Positions 5,014 through 13,958 of a stretch of 20,390 nt of DNA are shown here, in pieces. The translations under genes were made by a program, and so were the position numbers. The stretch's first letter is position 1. The number at the start of each line of letters is the position of its first letter. The notes beneath the pieces are model-generated. The model saw nothing but the letters and a program-made list of their open reading frames with translations, made no database searches and was not told where the DNA came from. This DNA is from a virus: the IMG/VR virus record IMGVR_UViG_3300044695_005601, positions 1 to 20,390 of that record; one strand, given 5' to 3'.

Positions 5014-5755
5014 TTGGACATGGAATCACAGTGAGGCCAAGGGACCGGCGTTTGCCGTGCTGCTGGCCATGGCCGATTGGGCGATGGATGGCGACAGGTG
5101 TTTCGCCTCTTATCGCCGGCTGGCCGCCAAGGCGAGGGTCAGCGTCTCGACGGTGAGGCGGGCGTTGAGGGAGCTGGAGGAGTTGGGCGAGATCCGTCAG
5201 TTGGCCCCCGGAGACTTCGGCACACACGCCGAAAGGAAGCATGCAAGTGATTGGGTTCTCCCAAAAGTTTCATGTGTTCACAGTGACCATGTGGTCAGAG
5301 AGAACACATGCCATGTGTTCAGAGAGAACACATCATGTGTTCAGAGAGAACACTCAACTATAGTAAACTATTCTATTCCTTCTTCTACTACTACAGAAGA
5401 AAAGACAAAGACAACTGCAATACCATTCTCAAACAAATCCCTTAACCAACCCCTTCTTTCTAACGGTAAAGAAAAAGTGCCGCCGCGAGAAAGCGTTCTC
5501 GGAAAGGGCATGTCTGACGAAGACTGGCTGGACCATCTCGCCACCTTACCGCAATACGCTGGCGTCAACGTCCGCGCCAAGTTCGACCACCTGCTCAAGT
5601 GGTGCGCCGACAAGGGCGAGACGCCCACCCGCCAACGGCTGAAGGTCTGGCTGGACAAGGACGCCAAGCAGCAACGCATGGCACCCCCTGCCCCGAAGAT
5701 CGTGAAGATCGTGCGGGATGACTTCTCGGAACTCATGCAGGAGCTGGCGGTATGA
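4994..5755 (+). CDS. Replication initiator-like protein with internal origin (lambda O-like organisation), 253 aa
   Basis: The N-terminal domain (about 8-90) is a winged helix of the HTH_36/phage replication type: AVLLAMADWAMDGDRCFASYRRLAAKARVSVSTVRRALRELEELGEI has the helices and recognition helix, followed by a wing. Residues about 93-170 are a low-complexity linker encoded by four repeats and an AT-rich tract. The C-terminal domain (about 172-253, MSDEDWLDHLATLPQYAGVN onwards) is helical and could recruit helicase. This is the layout of lambda O: DNA-binding head, origin encoded in the linker, helicase-contact tail. DnaB, an SSB-like protein and nucleases follow downstream. The ATG at 4994 has AGGA 8 bases upstream and overlaps the lipoprotein gene. 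It ends in ATGA with the nuclease gene. Confidence 0.75.
   Translation: MSAQATSWTWNHSEAKGPAFAVLLAMADWAMDGDRCFASYRRLAAKARVSVSTVRRALRELEELGEIRQLAPGDFGTHAERKHASDWVLPKVSCVHSDHVVRENTCHVFRENTSCVQREHSTIVNYSIPSSTTTEEKTKTTAIPFSNKSLNQPLLSNGKEKVPPRESVLGKGMSDEDWLDHLATLPQYAGVNVRAKFDHLLKWCADKGETPTRQRLKVWLDKDAKQQRMAPPAPKIVKIVRDDFSELMQELAV
5271..5355. repeat. Iterons: four copies of a CATGTG(T/G)TC repeat, three palindromic
   Basis: Copies begin at 5271, 5288, 5312 and 5334. Copies 2-4 read CATGTGKTC-AGAGA-GAACAC, so each is itself an inverted repeat (CATGTGTTC against GAACACATG with a 5-base centre). Copy 1 is partial: CATGTGTTCACAGTGAC. Spacings are 17, 24 and 22 bases. Because 22 is not a multiple of three, the encoded peptide changes frame between copies (HVFRENTS, then CVQREHS). 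The repetition is therefore conserved as DNA rather than as protein. Confidence 0.85.
5271..5480. other. Putative phage replication origin inside the initiator gene
   Basis: Four iterons (5271-5355) are followed at once by a stretch much richer in A/T than the surrounding GC-rich DNA (about 5356-5480). That stretch includes the palindrome ACTATAGT at about 5357 and an inverted repeat TTCTTCT/AGAAGAA (5380-5386 and 5395-5401). Iterons beside an AT-rich melting region, inside the linker-coding part of the initiator gene, is the lambda ori arrangement. It is inferred from layout; no binding data are implied. Confidence 0.7.
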
Positions 5756-6144
5756 ACTCGTCCCAGAAAGGCAACCACGCCGAACTCCTGTTCTGCGCCG
5801 AGGCCGGCGCTCGGGGCTACGGCATCTACGCCCCGTGGGGGGGCGACCAAAAAGTTGACGTATGCTTGTCTAGCCCCAATGGCGGCTACATCGGCGTCCA
5901 GGTCAAGCGCGCCTGCATCCGCGCGTCCAACCCTGACTTCTACCAAGTCAACACCAGCAGCCGCAGTTCCGGCCTCTACGCCGGCGGGGCCTTTGACGTG
6001 TTGGCCGCCTACCTGCCCGACCGCAACGAGTTCGTCTTCTGGCACATCGACGAGATCCGGCAATACGGCCAGATCAGCTATTCGCCCAAGAAGCACCGCA
6101 AGCCCGGCAACTGGCAGCTTTTGGAAGAACTAGTCACCACATGA
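5752..6144 (+). CDS. PD-(D/E)XK nuclease-like protein (resolvase/PDDEXK type), 130 aa
   Basis: The protein has the small PD-(D/E)XK layout: E11 in the first helix (GNHAELLFCAEAGARG), D36 (QKVDVCL) and Q50-V-K52 (YIGVQVKRA). In this superfamily these residues co-ordinate Mg2+ for phosphodiester cleavage, with E/Q variation at the third position. The length suits archaeal Holliday-junction-resolvase-like or intron-type PDDEXK endonucleases. Its N-terminus MNSSQKG...EL resembles that of the nuclease at 9649 (MNSRQKG...EL), so the two may be distant paralogues. It follows the initiator with an ATGA overlap and AGGAG 8 bases upstream, suggesting a job in replication or recombination intermediates. 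The exact substrate is unknown. Confidence 0.65.
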   Translation: MNSSQKGNHAELLFCAEAGARGYGIYAPWGGDQKVDVCLSSPNGGYIGVQVKRACIRASNPDFYQVNTSSRSSGLYAGGAFDVLAAYLPDRNEFVFWHIDEIRQYGQISYSPKKHRKPGNWQLLEELVTT

Positions 6145-8262: not shown

Positions 8263-9656
8263 AAAAGCAACAAGCCATTCCCCACGACACGCAAGCCGAG
8301 CAGTGCGTCCTTGGCGGACTCATGTGCTACGGCGACTTGATCGACGAGTGGAACGAGTTGACCGGCGAGCATTTCTTCACGCCCGCCAACGCCACGATCC
8401 TCGACACGATCAAGGCCATCCGCGCCGAGGCCGGACAGCCCGACCTTATCTCGGTCACGCAGCATCTCTCCTCGCAGGGCAAGCTGGAGAATGTCGGCGG
8501 CGCCGGGGCCTTGGCCGAAATCTATTCCATGGCCGGTCCCCGCGACTTGTCCTACTACGTCAACATCCTGCGCGAGCATGTCGCCCGCCGCCGCATGGTC
8601 GAGGCCGGTGTGCGTATGGCCGCTGCCGGACGCGACATCGCGCAGAACGTCAGCGAAGTGGTGGCCGAGGCCGGTGAGAGCATCCTGTCCATCAACCTCG
8701 ACGGCCCCAGCCAAGGCAGCGTGCATGTCGGCAGCGTGGTCAGCGATGCCGCTGCCGAGATCGAGCAAGCCATGGCCAGCAAGGGCCAGCCCCGAGGACT
8801 GTCTACCGGCTACCGCGAGCTGGACGTGCTGACCGGCGGCTTGCGCGAGGGTCAGTTGATCGTTGTCGGTGGCCGACCCGGTATGGGCAAGAGTGCCCTG
8901 CTCATCAACATGTGCGACCGAATGGCCGCCGCTGGAAGTCCTGTGCTGCTGTTCTCCCTAGAAATGCCAGCCAAGAGCATCGCCAACCGCATCGTCATGG
9001 CCAGAGCGAGGGCCAACAGTGCCCGCGTCCGCTTGGGGGCGATCAGCGCCAGCGAGGCCAAGACCTTGGGCAACCACTTCTTCAAGCTGGCCGACCAACC
9101 GCTCTACATCGACGAGGCGCGCGGGGCCAACATCATGGACATCCGTGGCCGTGCCCGCCGCGACCTTCGCCGCCACGGCATCAAGGCCGTCTTCGTGGAC
9201 TACGCCCAGCTCTTGGAAGCCAAGGGCTACAATACCAGCTACGAGCGGGTCAGCGCCGTCAGTCGCGGCCTCAAGGCCATGGCGCTGGAGTTGGGGGTGC
9301 CGGTCATCGCCGCCGCCCAAGTCGGCCGCAAAGCCGACGAGCGCAGCGACACCCGGCCGAAGATGAGCGACTTGAAAGACTCCGGTTCCTTGGAGCAGGA
9401 CGCCGACATCATCATCCTTCTTCACCGCGAAGGCTACTACGAGGCCGGCAGTGGCGCCGACAGCACGGACAACCAGGATGCCGAGATGATCGTGGCCAAG
9501 CACCGCGAGGGCCAGACCCGCAGCTTCCCCATGGTCTGGTCGCCGAGCTGCACCCGCTTTGACCACGCCAACATCAGCCGCATGACCGACGAGGCCCCGC
9601 ACAAGTATGGCGAGCAACCCGACCTCCACACCATTAACGCCGTCCTCAATGAATAG
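8259..9656 (+). CDS. dnaB: Replicative DNA helicase, DnaB-like, 465 aa
   Basis: A ring helicase that unwinds duplex DNA 5' to 3' ahead of the replication fork using ATP. The N-terminal DnaB domain spans about 7-110 (IPHDTQAEQCVLGGLM is its typical opening). The RecA-like C-terminal domain begins near 180 (GLSTGYRELDVLTGGLREGQL). Walker A is GRPGMGKS (205-212), catalytic E235 lies in SLEMP, Walker B is VFVDYAQ with D314, motif H4-like is SGSLEQDADIIILLHR (375-390), and the arginine-finger region is AKHREGQTR (413-421). Length and motifs are complete. Phages with their own DnaB usually load it with their own initiator or a loader; no separate loader is evident, so the C-terminal domain of the 4994 initiator is the candidate. 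Confidence 0.95.
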   Translation: MKKQQAIPHDTQAEQCVLGGLMCYGDLIDEWNELTGEHFFTPANATILDTIKAIRAEAGQPDLISVTQHLSSQGKLENVGGAGALAEIYSMAGPRDLSYYVNILREHVARRRMVEAGVRMAAAGRDIAQNVSEVVAEAGESILSINLDGPSQGSVHVGSVVSDAAAEIEQAMASKGQPRGLSTGYRELDVLTGGLREGQLIVVGGRPGMGKSALLINMCDRMAAAGSPVLLFSLEMPAKSIANRIVMARARANSARVRLGAISASEAKTLGNHFFKLADQPLYIDEARGANIMDIRGRARRDLRRHGIKAVFVDYAQLLEAKGYNTSYERVSAVSRGLKAMALELGVPVIAAAQVGRKADERSDTRPKMSDLKDSGSLEQDADIIILLHREGYYEAGSGADSTDNQDAEMIVAKHREGQTRSFPMVWSPSCTRFDHANISRMTDEAPHKYGEQPDLHTINAVLNE

Positions 9657-9978
9657 CCGCCAAAAAGGAAAACGCGGGGAACTGGAAGCCGCCAAGTTCC
9701 TCACCGCCGAAGGCTTCCCCGCCCGCCGCAGCCAGCAGTATTGCGGCGACACGAAGGGCGACAGCAGTGATGTCCTCTGCGAGTGCCTGCCCAAGCTGCA
9801 CTTCGAGGTCAAGCGCACTGAGAAAGGAAATCTTTACAACTGGATCGCCCAGGCCAAGCGCGATGCCGGCGAGAAACTGCCCGTAGTCATGCACCGCCGC
9901 AACGACAGTGAGTGGCTGGCCATCCTGCCGGCCGAGACCTTCCTCGTCATCCTGCGCAACTCCAATTTCGTCGAGTAG
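9649..9978 (+). CDS. Holliday-junction-resolvase-like PD-(D/E)XK nuclease, 109 aa
   Basis: The catalytic pattern is complete: E11 in the first helix (KGKRGELEAAKFL), D41 (GDSSDVLCE) and E53-V-K55 (LHFEVKRTE). This matches small Hjc-like resolvase or VRR-like PDDEXK nucleases of about 110 residues, which cut branched DNA with Mg2+. The ATG at 9649 lies inside the last codons of the helicase gene (8-base overlap); an upstream start would be inside the helicase. Placed between helicase and SSB-like genes, it probably resolves replication or recombination junctions before packaging. Its N-terminus resembles that of the nuclease at 5752. Confidence 0.75.
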   Translation: MNSRQKGKRGELEAAKFLTAEGFPARRSQQYCGDTKGDSSDVLCECLPKLHFEVKRTEKGNLYNWIAQAKRDAGEKLPVVMHRRNDSEWLAILPAETFLVILRNSNFVE

Positions 9979-10504: not shown

Positions 10505-10696
10505 ATGGCCGCCCGCAATCCCGCACTCTCCTGCGAAGGCTTTAGCTGCTTCGCCGGACCCTATCTGGCCAGTGAGGAACACATGATCCTTCCCGTCCTC
10601 TTGGATGCCGCGAAGGCCAACAAGGAAACCCGCGTGGACCGCAGCGAGTCCGGCGCGTGGATCTGGCAACGCAGCCGCAAGCGCAACGCGGCATAG
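10505..10696 (+). CDS. Small hypothetical protein, 63 aa
   Basis: Not recognised. It has two cysteines near the start (LSCEGFSCFAGPY), a central helix (EEHMILPVLLDAAKANKE, about 24-41) and a basic C-terminus (WQRSRKRNAA). The ATG lies two bases after the SSB-like gene's stop. No SD is present, so it may depend on re-initiation. Confidence 0.55.
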   Translation: MAARNPALSCEGFSCFAGPYLASEEHMILPVLLDAAKANKETRVDRSESGAWIWQRSRKRNAA

Positions 10697-10705
10697 GTGG
10701 CAACA

Positions 10706-10735
10706 GCGGGGGTCGGCCGCAACACCGGCCCCCGC
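10706..10735 (+). repeat. Strong GC hairpin between genes
   Basis: GCGGGGGTCGG (10706-10716) pairs with CCGGCCCCCGC (10725-10735): 11 pairs with one G-T wobble around an 8-base loop. It lies in the 55-base gap before the RecB-like gene. No T-tract follows, so it may mark RNA processing, a pause, or mRNA 3'-end stabilisation rather than a standard terminator. Confidence 0.5.
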
Positions 10736-10751
10736 ATCACCAACCAAAGTT

Positions 10752-11582
10752 ATGGCAATTCTATCCGAATCAAAATTCACAGACGGCGGCCACTGGTATA
10801 AGCCGGACGGCACCCCCTGCCACCAGCTTCCCAAGAAAGACGGCAGCGGACTCAAAGACACCACCTTGGCCGACGCCAAGAAGCTCCTGCTTCTACCGTC
10901 TGTCACCGGCTACACCGGCATCCTCGACAAGCCCGCCCTCTTGAACTGGAAGGCCACGCAAGTTGCGATAGCCGCCTTCAACACCCCACCCAAGCCCGAG
11001 GAAACCATCGAGTATTTCTGCGAGCGGGTCATTGGCGCCAGCAAGGCCCCGGTGGCAGCCGCCGCCGATCTCGGCAGCAAGGTGCATGACGCATTGGAAA
11101 AGCTGCTCATGGAAGGCCCGAGCGCTGTTCCCGAAGACATGTGGGCCTATGTCGCCCCGGTGATGGACTGGAAGCAGAAGAACAAGATCACCTACAGCGA
11201 CATCGAAGTTGTCCTGGTCAACCACGAATACGGCTACGCCGGCCGCTGCGATGCCCTCGGCACCGACAAGGACGGCAACCGCATGGTCATCGACTACAAG
11301 ACCCGCAAGACAAAGCCCAAGCAGAAGGTGGGGCCATACGACACCCAAGGCATGCAGCTCGCCGCTTATGCCGTGGCCAAGTGGGGCGAAGACCAGTTGC
11401 ACACCGTCCACGGTTACAACGTCTACATCAGCACCACCGAAGTCGGCCGCGTCGAACCCTACAAGCACGACAGCCTAGTCCCGCATTGGGAAGCGTTCAA
11501 AGCCGCCTGCGTCTTGTGGCGCCACGTCAAGGGCTACGACCCGAGGCAGCCGGCGTTCACGACCTTGGCCCAAGCCGCATGA
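10752..11582 (+). CDS. RecB-like PD-(D/E)XK exonuclease, 276 aa
   Basis: The RecB/Cas4 nuclease motifs appear in order: GSKVHDALEKLL with H112, YAGRCDALG with D167, MVIDYKT with D181 and K183, then QGMQLAAYA with Q202 and Y206 (the QhxxY motif). These residues bind metal and DNA and cut the phosphodiester backbone. The first 100 residues hold a conserved leader (LPSVTGYTGILDKPALLNWK) common in phage members. It could process DNA ends for recombination or degrade host DNA. The ATG at 10752 follows a GC hairpin; the frame is open further upstream but would overlap the previous gene. No SD is seen. It ends in ATGA with the metallopeptidase-like gene. Confidence 0.85.
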   Translation: MAILSESKFTDGGHWYKPDGTPCHQLPKKDGSGLKDTTLADAKKLLLLPSVTGYTGILDKPALLNWKATQVAIAAFNTPPKPEETIEYFCERVIGASKAPVAAAADLGSKVHDALEKLLMEGPSAVPEDMWAYVAPVMDWKQKNKITYSDIEVVLVNHEYGYAGRCDALGTDKDGNRMVIDYKTRKTKPKQKVGPYDTQGMQLAAYAVAKWGEDQLHTVHGYNVYISTTEVGRVEPYKHDSLVPHWEAFKAACVLWRHVKGYDPRQPAFTTLAQAA

Positions 11583-13003: not shown

Positions 13004-13212
13004 TCGCCTTCTTCCCTGACCGCGAGCGCGTTTACGTCAAAGGCAAGGACTCCCCCTGCCGCACGCTCATCTACTGCAAGAACGGCGGCGGCGAGAACGA
13101 TTACGTCACCGTCATCCGCGAGGACAACGGCGAATGGCTCACCGTCCGCATCGACCAGATCGTCAGCGCGCCGAATCCGACTTTGGATATTGAGGAGGAG
13201 CCAAGTGAATGA
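13000..13212 (+). CDS. Small beta-rich hypothetical protein, 70 aa
   Basis: Strands are suggested by RVYVKGKDSPCRTLIYCK, NDYVTVIRED and EWLTVRIDQIV, so a small beta barrel or sandwich is likely. I do not recognise it. It starts in ATGA with the preceding gene. Its last codons hold GAGGAGGAG, the SD for both overlapping methyltransferase-locus starts (GTG 13205, ATG 13209). The ATG of the second frame overlaps its stop codon as ATGA. Confidence 0.65.
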   Translation: MIAFFPDRERVYVKGKDSPCRTLIYCKNGGGENDYVTVIREDNGEWLTVRIDQIVSAPNPTLDIEEEPSE

Positions 13213-13933
13213 GCTGGCTCTTTTCGCAGGCGCTGGTGGCGGAATACTCGGCGGCAAACTCCTCGGATGGCGCACCGTCTGCGCCGTCGAATACGACGCC
13301 TACGCCGCAAGCGTTCTTGTCGCGCGACAAAACGACGGATGCTTGGAGCCGTTTCCCATCTGGGATGACGTGCGAACCTTTGACGGAAAGCCGTGGCGAG
13401 GACTTGTTGACGTGGTTTCTGGCGGGTTTCCATGCACCGACATCAGCGTTGCCGGGAAAGGCGCGGGCATCGAAGGCGAAGAAAGCGGCCTCTGGTCCGA
13501 AATGGCCCGAATCATTGGCGAAGTGGGACCGCGATACGTCTTCGTGGAAAACAGCCCAGCGATTGTTGTTCGCGGACTCGGTCGAGTGCTTGGAGACCTT
13601 TCCGAGATGGGGTTTGATGCGCGCTGGGGAGTTATTGGCGCAGACGCCTGTGGATTTCAACATCACCGAGCCAGATTTTGGCTGGTTGCCCACGCCGACA
13701 GCAACAGACGGCAAGGGCGGAACGACGACTATTCGCAAGGATACTGGGAAGCAGCGAACGGATCAGCTTCGCCACTACGTCAAGATCCGCTTTGGCGTCA
13801 TCTATCCGAATCCGAACTGGCTCGACAAAGTTATGGGATTCCCGACCGGCTGGACCGCACTCGATGCGCTGGAAACGCCCAGGTGGCACCAGTGGCTGCG
13901 CTCGCATGGCGTCTTCTCGGCGGACCCCGATAG
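13205..13933 (+). CDS. DNA (cytosine-5) methyltransferase, 242 aa, overprinted by a second frame
   Basis: It transfers methyl from S-adenosylmethionine to C5 of cytosine in DNA. Motifs in order: I FAGAGGGIL (7-15), acidic E29 for SAM, IV GGFPCTDIS with catalytic C77, VI VENSP (E115), VIII QHHRARFWLVAHADS (152-166), a short target-recognition region (about 170-220), and X-like GNAQVAPVAALAWRLL (223-238). It is short for the family, but all core motifs except the exact ENV are present. I choose the GTG at 13205 because GAGGAGGAG is five bases upstream and the domain begins at once (VNELALFAGAGG). It may protect phage DNA from host restriction. The whole gene is also open in the +1 frame (13209-13958), which fits the operon junctions better. 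Confidence 0.85.
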   Translation: MNELALFAGAGGGILGGKLLGWRTVCAVEYDAYAASVLVARQNDGCLEPFPIWDDVRTFDGKPWRGLVDVVSGGFPCTDISVAGKGAGIEGEESGLWSEMARIIGEVGPRYVFVENSPAIVVRGLGRVLGDLSEMGFDARWGVIGADACGFQHHRARFWLVAHADSNRRQGRNDDYSQGYWEAANGSASPLRQDPLWRHLSESELARQSYGIPDRLDRTRCAGNAQVAPVAALAWRLLGGPR

Positions 13934-13958
13934 CACACAGCCGCACACACCCGAATGA
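13209..13958 (+). CDS. Overprinted 'MSWLFSQALV' protein in alternate frame of the methyltransferase gene, 249 aa
   Basis: This frame runs the full length of the methyltransferase gene, shifted by one base, and stays open for 249 codons. Its ends are ATGA overlaps with the genes before (13209-13212) and after (13955-13958), exactly the operon's junction style. The methyltransferase's own ends are not. From memory the sequence matches a common uncharacterised phage protein family: MSWLFSQALV at the start, SRFPSGMTCEPLTE (47-60), KWPESLAKWDRDTSSWKTA (98-116), LETFPRWGLMRAGE (128-141), GWLPTPTATDGKGG (158-171), WLDKVMGFPTGWTAL (204-218). The function is unknown. Composition is Ser/Thr/Pro/Trp-rich, as expected for a frame born by overprinting. 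Both frames share one SD. Confidence 0.6.
   Translation: MSWLFSQALVAEYSAANSSDGAPSAPSNTTPTPQAFLSRDKTTDAWSRFPSGMTCEPLTESRGEDLLTWFLAGFHAPTSALPGKARASKAKKAASGPKWPESLAKWDRDTSSWKTAQRLLFADSVECLETFPRWGLMRAGELLAQTPVDFNITEPDFGWLPTPTATDGKGGTTTIRKDTGKQRTDQLRHYVKIRFGVIYPNPNWLDKVMGFPTGWTALDALETPRWHQWLRSHGVFSADPDSTQPHTPE

Follow-up and report, generated by a model that had tools for sequence, protein, structure and literature searches.

Does the second reading frame that runs through a phage cytosine methyltransferase gene encode a protein and, if so, what is that protein? The question is raised by a 20-kb IMG/VR virus record, the whole 20,390 nucleotides of which are referred to here as the window, where two frames of the same strand are open across almost exactly the same bases. 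We propose, at a probability of about 0.84, that the locus specifies a heterodimeric C5-cytosine methyltransferase, one subunit in each frame, termed alpha (frame 0) and beta (+1 frame), and sequence comparison suggests that both would be expressed, form a complex and methylate DNA.

Layout and conservation of the two frames

The window encodes a DnaB helicase, a terminase and a SU10-type capsid protein, and the setting is therefore an ordinary tailed-phage context. It also contains three PD-(D/E)XK nuclease-like genes (5752–6144, 9607–9978 and 10605–11582), none of which adjoins the methyltransferase. All features described below are on the plus strand. The alpha gene (13205–13933) starts with GTG at 13205, ends with a TAG stop at 13933 and encodes a C5-cytosine methyltransferase of 242 residues, identified by PF00145, phrog_363 and an AF2 model searched with Foldseek. 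The beta gene (13209–13958) starts with ATG at 13209, ends with a TGA stop at 13958 and would encode an 'MSWLF' protein of 249 residues, identified by phrog_1008, phrog_26627, hhalign and stop avoidance. The beta start lies in an ATGA (13209–13212) over the stop of the upstream gene (13210–13212), and the beta stop lies in a second ATGA (13955–13958) over the ATG (13955) with which the downstream gene begins, an arrangement of the beta stop that is found in 50 of 214 loci. The alpha frame ends 21 bases 5' of the next gene. A Shine–Dalgarno-like sequence, GAGGAGGAG (13192–13200), precedes both starts, its end being 4 nt from the GTG and 8 nt from the ATG. The initial annotation had described two frames open for about 730 bases, a +1 start four bases after the first, ATGA overlaps on both sides and one Shine–Dalgarno sequence for both starts; the frames and overlaps are as it stated, and the position of GAGGAGGAG supports the shared site.

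Both frames were encoded in all 160 viral-contig loci fetched by either frame, with the +1 ATG at +4 in nearly all, and among 216 related loci, 206 have exactly 4 nt between alpha position 1 and the beta ATG. Stop avoidance was measured against a null model of synonymous-codon shuffling within each gene, which leaves the protein sequence and codon usage of alpha unchanged, and the unbiased form of the test used loci picked by the methyltransferase frame alone. For the window by itself, the probability of no internal +1 stop is ∼0.04, which is weak. Among 62 viral loci found via the methyltransferase frame there were no +1 stops versus 264 expected, and 75 bacterial-genome loci from a methyltransferase-frame search contained 4 versus 267 expected. 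When near duplicates were dropped, the 101 remaining loci, which share ancestry and are not independent, contained 4 stops versus ∼393 expected, and the +1 frame was stop-free in 99 of them versus 2.6 expected; for alphas at ∼55–60% identity, however, changes at synonymous sites should be close to saturation. By region, the 101 loci had 0 stops versus 275.7 expected over motifs I–VIII, 0 versus 60.7 in the variable region and 4 versus 56.6 over motifs IX–X. The depletion is present across GC contents of 0.45–0.65. The +2 frame of the 62 viral and 75 bacterial-genome loci shows no comparable depletion overall, and avoidance is absent from the controls, a terminase (842 stops versus 921 expected) and five single-chain methyltransferases (103 versus 108). 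The other genes of the window have +1 stops near expectation.

As support only, alpha-synonymous changes that create +1 stops occurred, relative to other synonymous changes, at 0.09 (transitions) and 0.01 (transversions), compared with 0.33 and 0.39 in the terminase. Beta-frame similarity exceeds that of synonymous shuffles (Z 7.2), with the +2 frame also raised (Z 4.4); the +2 frame is not neutral in this test because beta constrains alpha third positions. Frame-specific substitution classes gave NN/NS ratios of 0.26–0.40 at alpha first positions, and the terminase transversion ratio is similarly low (2 versus 25 changes). A comparable bias in the terminase, itself based on few counts, partly confounds this test, and it is not relied on.

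Given the first frame, the second is thus kept open beyond chance. The dual coding of the locus is real, conserved and largely unannotated, and the pattern of constraint points to translation of both frames. It had been suggested at the outset that a +1 frame whose homologues occur only with an intact methyltransferase, and which is under no selection, would speak against a second gene; the latter part of that pattern is contradicted by the near absence of +1 stops.

The two frames carry complementary motif sets

Alpha matches the Pfam family DNA_methylase (PF00145, E 2.4e-27) and phrog_363 (E 3.4e-58). Motifs I, IV (GGFPC), VI (ENS), VIII (RxR) and X (GNAQV) are present, and the catalytic cysteine of motif IV (residue 77; 13433–13435) is invariant in 106–110 alphas. 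The GN of motif X (13871–13885) is nearly invariant. The AF2 model has a pLDDT of 81, with residues 1–170 mostly above 90, residues 177–222 below 50 and motif X forming a confident helix (residues 228–237). Its top Foldseek match is M.HhaI (E 1.1e-14 over 167 columns), and M.HaeIII was also found. Alpha is alignable to canonical enzymes (Dcm and three phage enzymes) over motifs I–VIII only and to M.HhaI over 15–179, and the motif IX pattern occurs in none of 216 alphas. An assignment of alpha as a single-chain C5-methyltransferase of the Dcm and M.HhaI type, with motifs I–X in one polypeptide, was rejected since frame 0 lacks motif IX. Hence the earlier statement that frame 0 carries all core methyltransferase motifs through to GNAQV is correct for I, IV, VI, VIII and X and incorrect for IX.

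A segment resembling motif IX is present in beta. The consensus at the beta end is LNPxWxEWLMGWPxGWTDL, and the segment in the window, NPNWLDKVMGFPTGWT (13809–13856; NPxWxEWLMGFPxGWT), aligns with Dcm RRLTPRECARLMGFEAP and with the in-frame RLNPELPEWMMGWPAGW of a single-chain relative, L271, the latter with a probability of 96 and an E-value of 2.6e-9 by profile comparison. Direct profile comparison of betas with four canonical methyltransferases gave weak, low-probability matches (E 0.063 for the MSWLF clade and 0.0017 for other betas) that are placed exactly at motif IX. The motif X pattern is found in only 2 of 216 betas. One frame thus carries motifs I–VIII and X and the other the motif-IX-like segment. 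The window beta matches phrog_1008 (E 3.1e-19, residues 61–175), although the matched region overlies alpha motifs and is partly open to the caveat of a coding shadow, and phrog_26627 (E 7.7e-11). These matches bear out the initial proposal that the +1 product belongs to an abundant phage family, all five motifs quoted for it being there, while its description as a separate uncharacterised protein gives way to that of a probable beta subunit of the same enzyme. Known methyltransferases contain nothing equivalent to the N-terminal half of beta, which is conserved (MSWLFSQAL, GMTxxPLTE). The C-terminal half (LPTP...MGFPTGWT) has a match in single-chain enzymes, in their C-terminal part. The AF2 model of beta is of low confidence (pLDDT 64), the C-terminal third being its best part, and neither a sequence search of the PDB nor a fold search with this model returned anything. 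Scans of 141 betas with Pfam and NCBIfam returned nothing beyond scattered chance matches, with no Pfam family for beta, and a literature search on 'MSWLF' found no relevant text.

Information content crosses over between the frames. It is higher in alpha over motifs I–VIII and at motif X, higher in beta over LPTPTATDGK and NPxWxEWLM, and about equal at MGFPTGWT. The LPTPTATDGKGG segment of beta (13686–13721), in the variable or target-recognition region, has an information content of 2.07 versus 1.39 for alpha. This region is open in both frames, and conservation of its PTP part favours beta; alpha is variable and predicted to be disordered there and just after.

We propose that ribosomes recruited by the one Shine–Dalgarno sequence start at either GTG 13205 or ATG 13209 of a single message. 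Alpha would fold as the SAM-binding catalytic large domain (motifs I–VIII) with the motif X helix, joined by a poorly conserved linker between VIII and X, and beta would supply the missing part of the small domain, comprising the PTP-containing variable region and motif IX and probably serving in recognition. In single-chain enzymes motif IX organises target recognition. The two chains would then combine to form the active enzyme, with phage DNA as its substrate, and the methylation would most likely protect this DNA against host restriction.

Two-polypeptide enzymes of this kind are already known. Lee, Kam and Shaw are said to have described in 1995 two overlapping open reading frames for M.EcoHK31I, the small one being in another frame. 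In M.EcoHK31I (YGGCCR) the larger subunit contains motifs I–VIII, X and the TRD and the smaller contains motif IX (PMC3404938), and compared by this published description the window locus has a similar distribution of motifs. The phage beta differs in starting 4 nt after alpha and extending over the entire gene instead of an internal portion, and in having a conserved additional N-terminal half. Moreover, the TRD of M.EcoHK31I is assigned to its large subunit, whereas the better conserved variable region of the phage locus is in beta, and the window locus is carried by a phage, no neighbouring gene being recognised as a restriction enzyme. We read the locus as an extreme form of the M.EcoHK31I type, in which the subunit genes would be coextensive and share one ribosome-binding site. 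M.AquI (CYCGRG) is likewise divided between two polypeptides, the smaller of which carries motif IX. However, its small subunit holds both IX and X, and assignment of the window locus to the M.AquI type was rejected on the presence of motif X in alpha and its rarity in betas.

Profile comparison places MSWLF betas and the betas of other phages in one family (hhalign, E 8.9e-33). In mycobacteriophages Firecracker and Arturo, an alpha with motifs I–VIII is accompanied by a staggered +1 beta, and these two resemble M.AquI more than the window locus does. The Firecracker beta contains NPAFAEWMMGWPDGW followed by motif X (IGNGVCPQQA), and motifs IX and X are together in the +1 betas of Firecracker, Arturo and Orcanus. 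The Arturo beta matches the single-chain PHROG_116 at 409–489, downstream of the zone matched by alphas (205–378). Nested +1 betas with IX only occur in Leyra, Lc-Nu, Zerg and about a dozen enterobacterial loci, and the nested layout is also found in a Porphyromonas phage. A second, distant alpha group from enterobacterial genomes (L359–L377), with starts of the type MTAYYNEIDP..., has nested +1 betas with similar ends (22 residues, not shown). Paenibacillus phage Leyra is among the closest known systems, its nested gp61 and gp62, in frames 0 and +1, both being labelled 'DNA-cytosine methyltransferase' in GenBank. The Leyra beta differs in starting 184 nt into alpha and lacking the MSWLF half, and both Leyra frames are annotated, whereas MSWLF-type records usually show only one. 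L271 (L271:913-2892) has in a single frame alpha motifs I–VIII, LLPTP repeats, RLNPELPEWMMGWPAGW and GNGVVPQQ in a row. It matches PF00145, PHROG_363 and PHROG_1008 (E 2e-48) and is 41% identical to the Orcanus beta and 37% to the Arturo beta. Judged by its motif order (I–VIII, IX, X), L271 is a natural single-chain link between the split halves, and the clearest one, with alpha-like and beta-like parts fused.

Three single-chain methyltransferases of Gram-positive phages (L352:1163-1504, L353:1208-1690 and L357:1130-1636) have matches to the beta profile in their +1 frame over motifs IV–VIII (E 6e-8 to 6e-12), without motif IX, and these are probably a coding shadow. Because single-chain enzymes give such matches, the similarity within the beta family over the conserved motifs of alpha may be partly shadow as well; the motif IX end of betas is not so easily explained in this way. 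The +1 run of L353 additionally contains SLSDILEEEVDERYFLS, similar to RLVDILEKDVDESYYLS, which in L352 is in frame.

Alternative readings of the +1 frame

One alternative is programmed frameshifting, in which ribosomes would begin on the alpha frame and, once past motif VIII, move to +1, perhaps returning afterwards, to yield a single-chain enzyme with motif IX and no separate beta. The order of motifs across both frames is that of a complete enzyme and fused single-chain relatives such as L271 do exist. However, this mechanism requires neither an open +1 frame upstream of the shift, where no stops are seen versus 275.7 expected, nor a +1 ATG at the alpha start, which is conserved at 206 of 216 loci, and the betas of other phages have their own starts or staggered genes. 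We regard it as quite unlikely. A further reading takes beta to be an independent phage protein, for instance with a regulatory or anti-restriction function, whose gene only happens to overlap the methyltransferase; we regard this as very unlikely. The conserved N-terminal half, for which known methyltransferases offer no equivalent, would suit such a protein, but in each of the deep groups sampled alpha lacks motif IX and beta has it, alpha and beta are linked through fused and split relatives, and every GenBank beta match inspected sits on an alpha, no stand-alone beta being seen among them. That the +1 frame is untranslated, its openness and similarity being by-products of methyltransferase conservation and codon use, is extremely improbable and already strongly disfavoured: beta has no Pfam family and its profile also matches the +1 frame of L352, L353 and L357, but shuffles that keep alpha and its codon use predict ∼393 stops against the 4 observed, single-chain enzymes with the same motifs show no avoidance, the depletion holds from GC 0.45 to 0.65 with the beta ATG fixed at +4, and the PTP region is better conserved in beta than in alpha.

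Origin, spread and annotation of the paired frames

Older and newer frames can be proposed for each part of the locus. Over motifs I–VIII alpha would be the old frame and the N-terminal half of beta (13209–13685) the new, overprinted one, as suggested by the higher conservation of alpha in a region where beta is nevertheless stop-free in 101 loci. Single-chain enzymes and Firecracker-type betas have IX followed by X in one frame, but in this group the +1 frame carries IX and frame 0 carries X, and the C-terminal part of beta is therefore likely to be the old enzyme frame. As this half of beta matches the C-terminal part of single-chain enzymes, the frame-0 reading there is probably newer. Thus the alpha linker is probably the newer frame and the C-terminal half of beta the ancestral enzyme. 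The initial suggestion that the family arose by overprinting methyltransferase genes consequently suits the N-terminal half of beta and not its C-terminal half, which matches single-chain methyltransferases.

At least 575 relatives were found in one viral scan and 176 in bacterial genomes, including entries labelled Proteobacteria, Verrucomicrobia, Planctomycetes and Chloroflexi, and 26 of 398 genomes of one phylum have a beta match. It is possible, at rather less than even odds, that these represent a widespread class of self-complementing phage and prophage C5-methyltransferases with two coextensive frames, one Shine–Dalgarno sequence and obligate subunits, in which the first half of MSWLF-clade betas is a de novo overprinted domain with its own function in assembly, stoichiometry or regulation. 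No description of this split-frame generalisation was found in the open-access papers searched. Relatives from E. coli proved to be chromosomal copies that are close to a Kluyvera locus. In GenBank usually just one of the two frames is annotated, alpha in some records and beta in others. The window beta matches both PHROG_1008 and PHROG_26627, and the 'DNA methyltransferase' label of PHROG_1008 is silent on the overlap with the alpha gene (PHROG_363) and on the supply of motif IX.

If the proposal is correct, many phage and prophage records of a 'DNA cytosine methyltransferase' or a 'hypothetical protein' would be two enzyme halves of which one frame is recorded, and an annotated gene that is recoded (codon-optimised) for cloning would lose the partner frame and yield an inactive enzyme. 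The locus would extend the known two-polypeptide C5-methyltransferases to coextensive frames, with a function read from sequence. With ∼730 bases of same-strand dual coding, kept down to ∼50% alpha identity, it would also be an unusually clean natural system for the study of overprinting, because older and newer frames can be distinguished on each side.

Several relatives depart from the common layout. In L006:1997-2707 alpha has a stop near codon 203, with motif X beyond it and beta intact, through decay or sequencing error; as it could be the latter, no conclusion on independent selection is drawn from this locus. In L273:1096-2094 the alpha N-terminus continues into the beta frame as a single open frame, and the locus is therefore frameshifted or fused. 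In L342:1132-1891 and L263 (mycobacteriophage OfUltron-type) the alpha frame is broken into two annotated 'DNA methylase' genes and the beta-like motif IX frame is still there. Finally, L016, L031, L041, L166, L167 and others have TTA at alpha position 1, so that the usual start is lost with the beta ATG in place, and most of these have an in-frame ATG or GTG 9–21 nt upstream of that position.
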